DNA from: Nitrosopumilales archaeon
GTDB lineage: Archaea; Thermoproteota; Nitrososphaeria; Nitrososphaerales; Nitrosopumilaceae
Length of the DNA: 64,000 bases
Direction: 5' to 3'
Assembly (NCBI GenBank): GCA_016276965.1
Contig: JADNRU010000002.1
Coordinates: 1 to 64,000 of the forward strand
The translations under genes were made by a program, and so were the position numbers. Below the pieces are notes generated by a model that had not been told where the DNA came from, searched no databases, and saw nothing but the letters and a program-made list of their open reading frames with translations. Of this stretch, positions 5,054 to 47,321 are shown piece by piece; within the stretch, counting starts at the first letter, position 1, and each line of letters starts with the position of its first letter.

Positions 5054-5974
5054 ATGATAACAATTCTATCGGGCGGAACAGGTTCCGTCAAACTTGTAAG
5101 GGGATTAGCATCTCAAATTCAAGATCTTAATGTAATTAGTAATGTAGGGGATAACTACTGGCTCTATGGAATGTATCTCTGTCCTGATATTGATACCATA
5201 ATTTACGGACTAGCTGATCTATTGGATTTCGAACGTGGATGGGGAATAAAAAAAGACTCTTTCGGATTTTTGCGCCAAATGGAAGTTTTTGGAGAAGAAA
5301 CATGGTTTAGTATAGGAGATAGGGATGCAGCTACCCATCTAATGAGAACAAACATGCTAAAAAATGGAAAGAATCTTAGCGATATCACCAAATGGATGTG
5401 TGAAAAATTTGCAGTTGAAGCCAAAGTTATTCCTGTGACAGATAATACTGTGGAAACTAGAATAAGTACCAACAAAGGAGAACTTCACCTTCAAGAATAT
5501 TGGGTAAAGTATAGAGGACTAGACGAAGTATTGGGAATACAATACATTGGTGCAGATAAAGCCAGACCGAATCCAGAAGCTATCAATGCAATGCACGATT
5601 CCAAACTTGTAATTATAGCCCCAGGAAATCCTCTTACCAGTATTGGTCCGATGCTTTCTATCAAAGGAGTTAGAAAAGAATTATCAAAAATTAAAAAGAA
5701 AGTTGTAGCTGTAAGTCCTCTAATAGGTGATAAAGCAATTAGTGGCCCTGCAGCAAAATACATGCAGGCTGCCGGGATTGAAGTTTCAGCATACGGCGTT
5801 GCCAAAATGTACTCAGATGTTTGCTCTCATATGATAATAGATACTAAAGATAAAGCACTTGCAAAAAAGATACAAAATTTAGACACGCAAGTTTACGAAA
5901 CAAAAATCAAGATGATCAATAAGGAAGGAGAAAAAACTTTGGCCTCTTTTATTCTTAATCAAGTACACGTATAA
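5054..5974 (+). CDS. cofD: 2-phospho-L-lactate transferase CofD
   Basis: CofD joins the phospholactyl group (or its phosphoenolpyruvyl equivalent) to the deazaflavin Fo, making coenzyme F420-0. The 306-residue product has the family start ILSGGTGSVKLVRGL, the block NVGDN followed by CPDIDTIIYGLADL near residues 36-60, and later APGNPLTSIGPMLSIKGV near 190. Length is typical. It is followed after one base by cofC, which makes its substrate, so the two are surely one operon; the third gene, cofE, lies at 45.3 kb. Confidence 0.92.
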   Translation: MITILSGGTGSVKLVRGLASQIQDLNVISNVGDNYWLYGMYLCPDIDTIIYGLADLLDFERGWGIKKDSFGFLRQMEVFGEETWFSIGDRDAATHLMRTNMLKNGKNLSDITKWMCEKFAVEAKVIPVTDNTVETRISTNKGELHLQEYWVKYRGLDEVLGIQYIGADKARPNPEAINAMHDSKLVIIAPGNPLTSIGPMLSIKGVRKELSKIKKKVVAVSPLIGDKAISGPAAKYMQAAGIEVSAYGVAKMYSDVCSHMIIDTKDKALAKKIQNLDTQVYETKIKMINKEGEKTLASFILNQVHV

Positions 5975-16661: not shown

Positions 16662-19658
16662 GTGAAAAGGCCTGCCTGGGTATTAGCAATGTCAATTATG
16701 CTTTTAATGCCAATTTATGCTACGGCACAAAGCTCCGACCGCATTTCACTCCTTGATACTTTTGGTGAATTTGATAAAGGCGAATCAGTGTTTGTTTTTG
16801 GAAGCTTACCGAGAGTTTTACCAGATTCATTTTTGATTCTAAAAATCATAAACCCTCAAGGAGACTTGTGTCAAATCCAACAACTAACCCCTCTTTCAAA
16901 TGGATTATTTCTAACTGAACCAATTCCACTAAAAGGTAGAGTATGTGGAATTTCTGGAGATTATGAAATCAAAGTTTTTTATGGTAGTGATTCTACGACT
17001 TCGAAATTTACTTTAACTACTAAAAAATATCAAGAAAAAACTGGGGGAGATTACTTTGATTCTGCAGTAGACCTTATTTCTGAAAAAATAATTACTATAG
17101 CAGAACAAACTGGTGCAGGTACACTTCTTTACTCGGAGAGATTAGAATTACTTCGATCGCAACCATCAGAAGATACATTAGCGCAACTTGAAGAACTTTA
17201 TGCTGATTTATGGGATGACTTTTTCATTGAAGAAGAATTGTTTGAAATTGATACAAGTCTTCGACCTGCTACAAAAGCTGCATTAGATACTACAGCTGAA
17301 CTAATTGAAGAAGGCAAACTTCCATTTCAAGTTGCAAGGGATATTGACCGACAAACATTTGGCGCCATATTTTATTCACAAATTGGCGATACACAAACTG
17401 CCGTTGAAAAATTAAATGATGTTTTTGTTTCAATAACTAATGTTGATCCCGTAAAAGTTACTTCAAAACAAACACCTAGTTTTGCAGAATTAGAAGAAAC
17501 CCTCCTAAATATTATGAAAAAAACCCATTCAATCATGAGTAGAGATGTTAAGGAAGAAGTCGCATTTATTTTCGCTAGGGGAACTGGTCCAATCTATACT
17601 CAAGAAATAAACCAAATGATTGACCTTTTGTCAAAGTCAAGATATCTTGATGTTATCTTGCGAAATAGTGACCCATTATATCGGCTTGTACATACAGATT
17701 GGGAATCAACAAAATCCTCATTAATTAATCAAGAAAGCATAGAAGATTTACTTCTTAAAAAGGAAAAAGTGGATAAGCTTCATCAGGCAGCGCTTCTGTT
17801 ACGTGAACTTGATGATGTTGACCAATTTCTTTCATCTGATGCAGAAGAAAACTCAGATCTTGCAAACTTGATTTTGCCAGAATGGAATGACCTTCAATTA
17901 AATTTAGAATTGGCACATTCGGCCGATGATATTTTCAATTCGGAAACAGATATTAGAAATATGAAAAATGTTGTAGATGCATCATCAAGAATTTCAAAAA
18001 CAGTGGAGATTTCTAAACAAAGTAATGTTAATTCGGAATTAATACAAAGCTGGGAATCTCTTCTTACGCAAGTAGAGAATGCGGGTTCCGTCAGCCAGAT
18101 ATTGGAAATTGTTTTAGAATTTGATACTTCGATTACCGAGTTACGAGAAAAACGAAACCCTCTGACTATATTGAAATTTGAATATGAGGCACTTAAGGCA
18201 AGAGCTGAGCTTCAAGCAGATTATGAAAATCTATTTTATATTAACAATGCATTGAGAATAATTGATACTGCACAAAAGATGCAGGAAGGAAGTCCCTCTT
18301 TAACGAAAATAGACAGAATTGAAGTATTACTTACATGGGCAAGTGAAAAGGCACCAGAAATTAAAACAGATCTATATTCGTATTCAAAAGACGCATACAA
18401 GATTAGGGCTAGTGACATTTTGCAAAGAGCCAAGTCAATAGAAAATTTAGTAGATTTGAGTTTGCGTAAAAATAAGTTCTTGCCAAATTACATTGAATTT
18501 ACTGATTCGATGAAAGAAAAAGTCGATGAGGCAAGAGATCTTGTAATAAAAAATGATTTGGATGCAGCTGATGATATGGTACGACAATTGATGGCAGATT
18601 GGCAAGAAGTAACACTAGCTTACGCCGATGATCCGTATGGTTCAGATGTAGGTTATAGTATAGAAGAACTGCAAAGAATCGAGTATAGAAAAAAACTCGA
18701 CTCTTTATCTAACGCTGTTTCAAATTTCTATACTGCAGATTTTGAACCATACTCCGATGAATATGTGAAAATGTCTGATCAAGCTTCAGAATTTATTGAC
18801 TATGGAAACTTTGTTGATGCAGAATTAAAGTTCAATGAAATAAGAAAATACTTGAGTGATTATCTAGTTCTAAATAATAAAAGAATAATTTACGACATTT
18901 CATACGACCAAGAAGATGATATTTGGATAATGAGTGGTGCTGTAGATAAACCAGTATTTGATAGACGAGAGAGATTATACCTTACAGTTTATGACATGAA
19001 TGGAGAGGTTCACAGCAACTTAAAATTTACAGATACTCGTGATGGAGAATTTTATACACAATGGAAAGCTCCAACTAAACCAGGATTATACATAGTGATG
19101 TTACAGTATCAAGATGCCAAAGCATCACAAATTGTAAATGTAGAAGAAAAAGCCGTTACTCATAGAACAGAAACACTTGACAGTTTAGAATTGGCTAGAG
19201 AATTTGAGGAGCTTATTACATTCATTGAGGCCTTTGGAAGAGAAAATCTAGAGAAGAACAATTATTATTTTGAACCAGTGTTAAATGATATTAAAGAAGG
19301 ACTTGCAGACAGAGATTCAAAAAAAGTTTCAGATAAACTATCAGAACTAAACCTGTTAATTGAAAGATATCTTCCAGTCAGATCAAAATCAGCAGTAATA
19401 GAAGCTCATATGGATAACGATAAGCTATCTATCTCTGGTTCAGTTGTAAAACCCTATTTAGCTTTTAGAGAAGATCTATTCGTTGACATTTATAACCAAA
19501 AAGGAGAACGTATTGATGAAATATTCCTAAAAGATACTCCTGAAGGTTATGCAGGAAAGTTTTATGAAATTTTATCAAAACCATATGAACCAGGAATGTA
19601 TGTTGCACAACTATGGTATCATGATTTAATGGTATCTGATTTTTTTTATGTTAGATAA
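16662..19658 (+). CDS. Large secreted protein with duplicated C-terminal beta domain
   Basis: The 998-residue product starts with a signal peptide (core WVLAMSIMLLMPIYATAQ). A first beta domain (about 25-125) resembles the Ig-like modules near the C-terminus. A very long helical region (about 130-735) rich in Glu, Leu and Lys follows. Two similar beta domains then occur, at about 737-827 and 908-998: each has a GAVDKPVFDRRERLYLTVYD or GSVVKPYLAFREDLFVDIYN core, then a PGLYIVMLQYQD or PGMYVAQLWYHD strand. There is no membrane anchor at the C-terminus. This looks like a cell-envelope structural or adhesion protein; I do not know the family. The start is GTG. Confidence 0.75.
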   Translation: MKRPAWVLAMSIMLLMPIYATAQSSDRISLLDTFGEFDKGESVFVFGSLPRVLPDSFLILKIINPQGDLCQIQQLTPLSNGLFLTEPIPLKGRVCGISGDYEIKVFYGSDSTTSKFTLTTKKYQEKTGGDYFDSAVDLISEKIITIAEQTGAGTLLYSERLELLRSQPSEDTLAQLEELYADLWDDFFIEEELFEIDTSLRPATKAALDTTAELIEEGKLPFQVARDIDRQTFGAIFYSQIGDTQTAVEKLNDVFVSITNVDPVKVTSKQTPSFAELEETLLNIMKKTHSIMSRDVKEEVAFIFARGTGPIYTQEINQMIDLLSKSRYLDVILRNSDPLYRLVHTDWESTKSSLINQESIEDLLLKKEKVDKLHQAALLLRELDDVDQFLSSDAEENSDLANLILPEWNDLQLNLELAHSADDIFNSETDIRNMKNVVDASSRISKTVEISKQSNVNSELIQSWESLLTQVENAGSVSQILEIVLEFDTSITELREKRNPLTILKFEYEALKARAELQADYENLFYINNALRIIDTAQKMQEGSPSLTKIDRIEVLLTWASEKAPEIKTDLYSYSKDAYKIRASDILQRAKSIENLVDLSLRKNKFLPNYIEFTDSMKEKVDEARDLVIKNDLDAADDMVRQLMADWQEVTLAYADDPYGSDVGYSIEELQRIEYRKKLDSLSNAVSNFYTADFEPYSDEYVKMSDQASEFIDYGNFVDAELKFNEIRKYLSDYLVLNNKRIIYDISYDQEDDIWIMSGAVDKPVFDRRERLYLTVYDMNGEVHSNLKFTDTRDGEFYTQWKAPTKPGLYIVMLQYQDAKASQIVNVEEKAVTHRTETLDSLELAREFEELITFIEAFGRENLEKNNYYFEPVLNDIKEGLADRDSKKVSDKLSELNLLIERYLPVRSKSAVIEAHMDNDKLSISGSVVKPYLAFREDLFVDIYNQKGERIDEIFLKDTPEGYAGKFYEILSKPYEPGMYVAQLWYHDLMVSDFFYVR

Positions 19659-47039: not shown

Positions 47040-47052
47040 TTTTTTTATATAA
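47040..47052 (+). promoter_or_regulatory. TATA box of the TusA-like gene
   Basis: TTTTTTTATATAA precedes the SD-like AGGTGA (47073-47078) and the likely ATT start at 47085. The spacing predicts a transcript start near 47070, so the SD would lie at its very 5' end. Confidence 0.4.
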
Positions 47053-47084
47053 CAGAACAATGATCAAAAATTAGGTGACTTGAA

Positions 47085-47321
47085 ATTTCAGAAACAGATA
47101 CCACAAAATTAGATGCTACTGGATTGTTTTGTCCAGAACCTGTCTTTCGTACTAAAATTGCAATAGAAAAAATGCAAGTAGGTCAAGTATTAACTGTCCT
47201 TGCAGATGATCCTGCTGCAGAAGATGACATTTCAAGATGGGTTAAAAGAAATGGACATGAACTTTTAGAAATGAAAAAAAATGACAACGTCTTAGAATTT
47301 TCAATTAAAAAAGTGAAATAA
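47085..47321 (+). CDS. TusA/SirA-type sulfur carrier, probable ATT start
   Basis: TusA-family proteins carry persulfide sulfur. The core is LDATGLFCPEPVFRTKIAI, with the CPxP motif that binds sulfur, followed by a helix and two strands ending ISRWVKRNGHELLEM. The first strand lies upstream of the only canonical start (TTG 47124), so that start would destroy the fold. In-frame, the codon ATT at 47085 gives SETDTTKLDATG after an SD-like AGGTGA with six bases of spacing; a TGA lies at 47076. I therefore place the start at ATT. A sequencing error in the first codons is the alternative. Confidence 0.7.
   Translation: MSETDTTKLDATGLFCPEPVFRTKIAIEKMQVGQVLTVLADDPAAEDDISRWVKRNGHELLEMKKNDNVLEFSIKKVK

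Follow-up and report, generated by a model that had tools for sequence, protein, structure and literature searches.

A conserved AUU codon as the probable translation start of tusA in Nitrosopumilaceae

In part of the ammonia-oxidising archaeal family Nitrosopumilaceae, translation of a tusA gene very probably starts at an AUU codon. Within the 64,000-nucleotide stretch of DNA analysed here (the window), this codon lies at position 47085, behind a Shine–Dalgarno (SD) motif. The position of the start, the SD motif with its spacing and the conservation of AUU itself are all documented by comparing the gene with its orthologues. Selection for low or fidelity-sensitive expression of TusA, which might account for the retention of AUU, is a separate matter, and we judge the case for it to be about evenly balanced.

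The tusA reading frame and its canonical codons

The frame is open from ATT 47085 to a TAA at 47319-47321 and comprises 78 codons counted from ATT (Table 1). Its translation matches PF01206 (TusA) with 91.3 bits, against a Pfam gathering cut-off of 28.6; the NCBIfam equivalog for bacterial TusA gives 62.7 bits, under its cut-off of 78. Read from ATT, the protein contains the N-terminal strand of TusA followed by the CPxP active-site cysteine (LDATGLFCPEP), and this segment can be aligned with its counterpart in the E. coli TusA/YhhP structure 1dcj (LDA-G--CPEP). Judged from these matches, the product is a TusA family protein and a putative sulfur carrier. The gene is the only close tusA copy in the window genome, in which no second one was found.

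The first-pass annotation of this DNA had noted that TGA 47076 closes the frame, that TTG 47124 is the only canonical start and that the strand LDATGLFCPEP lies upstream of this TTG. Sequence and translation agree on each point: between the TGA and the active-site Cys codon at 47130, no other ATG, GTG or TTG is in frame. As the first canonical codon, TTG 47124 could be taken for the start, as could another canonical codon further downstream, and either would yield a truncated protein. We consider this highly improbable. The TTG lies inside the fold, two codons ahead of the active-site Cys, and a start there would lose the first strand of TusA. It is not conserved even among genus mates, being TTA in L002 and CTA in L004, whereas the stretch from ATT to TTG is conserved at the protein level. 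Furthermore, ten related loci with ATT or ATC have no canonical start at all before the active-site Cys codon.

Table 1. Features of the tusA locus in the window.
Feature	Position	Strand	Remarks
TATA-box-like TTTTTATA	47042..47049	+	aligned with TTTTAATA of relatives
Predicted transcription start region	47071..47074	+	predicted from TATA spacing only
Shine–Dalgarno motif AGGTGA	47073..47078	+	complementary to the 16S tail GGATCACCTCC of relatives
In-frame TGA, upstream closure of the tusA frame	47076..47078	+	contained in the SD motif AGGTGA
Probable ATT start codon	47085..47087	+	ATG at the aligned position in Nitrosopumilus and relatives; 58/59 tabulated sequences have ATT
tusA coding sequence	47085..47321	+	78 aa plus stop; PF01206, E 3.5e-26; dN 0.056-0.081 and dS >1 against genus mates
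TTG, the one canonical codon in frame ahead of the active site, very probably not the start	47124..47126	+	a start here would lose the LDATG strand; not conserved
Active-site motif CPEP	47130..47141	+	aligned with CPEP of 1dcj

ATT at the start position across the family

We surveyed 209 distinct tusA loci of the order. A script placed 56 of them in an ATT group, from which L160 was removed as a false match with an ATG upstream, leaving 55. Three loci of g20 (L007, L008 and L070) that the script had left unclassified were read by eye as ATT, which brought the total to 58. All of these Nitrosopumilaceae loci carry ATT at the position, and in the frame, of the ATG of Nitrosopumilus and Nitrosarchaeum, so that ATG TCT GAA in the ATG orthologues corresponds to ATT TCA GAA. 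The ATG of these two genera recurs at the identical position and frame in most other genera.

ATT was found in 4/4 genomes of the window genus (g1), 3/3 of g3, 2/2 of g20, 1/1 each of g9 and g19, and in 12 of the genomes examined in g13. In g15 it is present in 33 of 35 genomes, the remaining two having one ATG and one ATC. The only ATC case (L153, genome G183) is at a locus with an upstream in-frame GTG, and one of the 58 (L044), which is without an SD motif and has a GTG in frame, is a doubtful case of ATT. Both relatives of the window genus for which upstream sequence is available have AGGTGAC ahead of ATT, as in the window.

These alignments strongly support ATT as the tusA start, which the first-pass annotation had proposed subject to a comparison of orthologues: ATT is aligned in several genera, and the ATG of Nitrosopumilus stands in the same place and frame, not in a different one. 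A one-base sequencing error had also been considered at that stage, and the window genome is a fragmented draft of 83 contigs. However, the assemblies of three further species of the genus, and several other genera, have the same ATT. A pseudogene is contradicted by the substitution rates, as dN between the window tusA and its genus mates (about 0.05-0.08) is far below dS (1.0-1.2). Error or decay of the gene is thus extremely improbable.

On an EF-2 tree, ATT occurs in both deep branches of the family, one holding g15, g9 and g19 and the other g20, g1, g3 and part of g13; Nitrosopumilus, Nitrosarchaeum and Cenarchaeum-like genera, all with ATG, make up the crown. Parsimony applied by eye leaves it about even whether ATT is ancestral in the family, with several replacements, or had at least two origins. 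The tusA of g18 keeps AGGTGA but starts with ATG, a pattern that would fit a switch away from an ancestor with SD and ATT.

An SD motif at fixed spacing ahead of ATT

AGGTGA precedes ATT 47085 by six bases and had been described in the first-pass annotation as a complement of the 16S tail. It is a true complement of the tail GGATCACCTCC found in seven relatives, including a genus mate; the 16S gene of the window genome was looked for and not found, and the tail sequence is that of the relatives. In the 64 kb, 1.16 copies of the bare pattern AGGTGA-N6-ATT are expected and one is present. This is chance level, so that a single sequence is no evidence, and it is conservation across orthologues that decides.

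Such conservation is clear in the survey. An SD core, GGTG in 49 loci and GGCG (as GGCGA) in 4, is present at fixed spacing in 53 of the 54 scripted ATT loci with upstream sequence. Among ATG loci, GGTG was found in 10/127, and 106/127 have no SD-like motif. In a comparable interval ahead of canonical starts in general, GGTG was present at 44 of 972 (486 aligned start pairs from two genomes). The window gene, like nearly all the ATT loci, has an SD motif at a workable spacing for a non-canonical start.

GGTG or GGCG stands 7 nt ahead of ATT in 32 loci, including the window, and 6 nt ahead in 24. Throughout the 7-nt class, G is invariant at -11, -10 and -8 and any GTG is out of frame, while GGTGA usually contributes a TGA stop to the tusA frame, three codons ahead of ATT (the codon at the position of 47076-47078 is TGA in 25/59 tabulated sequences). 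Because its spacing puts GTG out of frame, ATT is the only conserved start candidate in these 32 loci. In the 6-nt class the upstream GTG is in frame in all loci but one, and those loci alone therefore do not require ATT.

This GTG raises an alternative: the GUG within AGGUGA could act as a leaderless or near-leaderless start, and in the 7-nt class ribosomes would then have to reach the TusA frame by a +1 frameshift. Judged by the TATA spacing described below, this GUG lies near the mRNA 5′ end, and in the 23/24 six-spacer ATT loci in which it is in frame it may well serve as a start. Nevertheless, neither the window nor any other locus of the 7-nt class has it in frame, the intervening sequence up to ATT is variable and contains no constant shift site, and several loci are without the stop that could provoke a shift. 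Four g15 loci have GGCGA in place of GGTGA (L144 with 6 nt; L041, L152 and L226 with 7 nt). These have neither a GTG nor any canonical start in the 24-32 upstream codons of the frame examined, and still keep ATT. The Ile codon also remains ATT even where GUG is in frame. A GUG start with frameshifting is thus very unlikely for the window gene. A conserved GTG-X-stop mini-ORF before ATT was considered as well and rejected; it is present in g1 and g3 but not retained in g20 and several g15 loci.

Promoter spacing and the 5′ end of the mRNA

The TATA-like TTTTTATA ends 25 nt before the GTG of the SD motif, and the same distance was found in L003 and L004 of the same genus. In ATG-type relatives, 25 nt past the TATA-like motif leads to a homologous TTAG. 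For nearly all ATT loci that have such a motif, the distance from the end of TTTTAATA to ATT is 32-38 nt. Judging from this spacing, the mRNA 5′ end probably lies just upstream of AGGUGA, which would place the SD motif at the very 5′ end of the transcript. No RNA structure beyond that of shuffled sequences was found at the tusA start (z 0.53).

Conservation of the codon and its possible role

At the start position, the 59 tabulated sequences have ATT in 58 cases, ATC in one and ATA in none, counts that are not independent events, the loci being related by descent and many of them taken from metagenome assemblies. Elsewhere in these genes, Ile is encoded by ATT, ATC and ATA in 180, 75 and 138 cases, and one fully conserved downstream Ile column has 21, 17 and 21. 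The Ser codon directly after ATT is variable (TCA, TCG, TCT or TCC). The start codon ends in T throughout the 32 loci of the 7-nt class, while dS among relatives is above 1. On this comparison, synonymous sites have turned over while the T of the start codon stayed, although the T might be selected for a reason unrelated to initiation. With no usable ATG, GTG or TTG in frame and a codon kept beyond the expectation for Ile, the gene has the features of a conserved AUU-type start.

AUU might be the start and yet be merely tolerated, a good SD motif making its third base unimportant and leaving it no regulatory role. This is compatible with AUU initiation and competes only with a regulatory function of the codon. 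Several lineages use ATG, with or without an SD motif (g18, genome G206 and the Nitrosopumilus branch), so AUU is not indispensable. Set against this are the T in 32/32 loci of the 7-nt class despite dS >1 among relatives, and the expectation that a neutral site should often show ATG inside the ATT clades as well. We regard mere tolerance as possible, but on the unlikely side. The retention of AUU across several genera suggests that the weak start was probably selected.

For initiation at AUU we propose the following sequence of events. The mRNA would begin just upstream of AGGUGA, and pairing of AGGUGA with the 16S tail would bring AUU, some 11 nt from the 5′ end, into the P site and so compensate for the weakness of the codon. 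Initiator Met-tRNA would then decode AUU, giving (M)SETDTTKLDATGLFCPEP..., the counterpart of MSES... from ATG relatives. Such a weak start would keep TusA low or tie its synthesis to the fidelity of initiation through aIF1 or aIF2. The archaeal initiation factors are aIF1, aIF1A and aIF2, not IF3. For archaeal aIF1, both a role in start-codon fidelity and the destabilisation of complexes on a non-AUG mRNA have been reported (PMC6237735), and in Streptomyces the conserved GTC start of sigR is repressed by IF3 (PMC5472188). Considered together, these two reports make a low or fidelity-sensitive set point of TusA the most likely reason for AUU.

Further ATT starts

A scan of 1.33 Mb of G001, a genus mate, against 0.98 Mb of G180 yielded 775 non-overlapping reciprocal-best ORF pairs, some of them rRNA shadows; ATT starts with a canonical codon close behind would escape such a scan, and the scanned part of G180 does not include its tusA region. 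Once rRNA shadows, frames with a canonical start close by and the disrupted frame of carB had been set aside, one further gene emerged, for a uppS-like polyprenyl diphosphate synthase (L310:12942, + strand; L377:14839, - strand). It has no canonical start before the conserved N-terminus in either G001 or G180, and its first canonical codon in G001 is beyond the DGNRRW motif. Its upstream sequence is GGTG-GAGAGAT-ATT in G001 and GGTG-GTGAGGT-ATT in G180, a GGTG-N7-ATT layout with the same 7 nt spacing as in tusA. ATT starts look rare but not unique. It is conceivable, if rather doubtful, that tusA and uppS, perhaps with further genes, form a small AUU-started group in the family, sharing GGTG-N7-ATT and co-controlled via start-codon fidelity through the levels of aIF1, aIF2 or initiator tRNA.

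The carB frame is an observation in its own right. It is broken between GEAGE and FDYSGSQ, in G001 by 21 nt with an in-frame TAA (AGTCGTTAAAACGACCGTCAA; L325 near 18885-18905, - strand) and in G180 by 20 nt (AGTCATCAAATGACCGTCAA; L291 near 5322-5341, - strand). Each insert contains a small hairpin (GTCGTT/AACGAC and GTCAT/ATGAC, respectively) and resembles a very small conserved intron or bypass element.

Discussion

Beyond bacterial infC, few genes with a conserved AUU start are known. In the open-access papers searched, we found no report of a conserved AUU or ATT start in Archaea or for tusA. From the orthologue comparison, the AUU of tusA appears to be a new, archaeal variant of a known phenomenon, inherited across a family and not produced by sequencing error. 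A lineage-wide AUU start provides a natural test of start-codon fidelity for archaeal translation, and clades with ATG at the same tusA position are ready-made comparisons. In practical terms, gene callers limited to ATG, GTG and TTG will truncate or miss AUU-started genes in this family.

The first-pass annotation had likened the gene to bacterial infC, which encodes IF3. The likeness holds for the codon, since both genes have kept an AUU start although AUG would be expected to initiate better, but it ends there. The infC product is a fidelity factor that represses its own start (PMC5472188), whereas tusA encodes a putative sulfur carrier and no initiation factor. The aIF1 gene of G001, located with an aIF1 probe, has an in-frame ATG at the conserved N-terminus, which speaks against an AUU start for aIF1 in that genome; the part of G180 searched gave no aIF1 match. 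As tusA is no initiation factor gene and aIF1 of G001 has ATG, an infC-type autoregulatory loop is not indicated.

Like tusA, sigR has a conserved non-canonical start, is not a translation factor gene and was overlooked by gene callers (PMC5472188). It differs in that its GTC start belongs to a bacterial stress sigma factor and has been proven by experiment, whereas the archaeal AUU is supported by comparative evidence only. The orthologous tusA of Nitrosopumilus and Nitrosarchaeum has the same frame and start position and a similar placement of the TATA motif, but it starts with ATG and is mostly without an SD motif. With the TusA family (PF01206) and E. coli TusA (1dcj/3lvj), the archaeal gene has in common the CPEP active site and a length of about 80 residues; it differs from bacterial TusA in scoring below the NCBIfam equivalog cut-off and in its probable non-canonical start.
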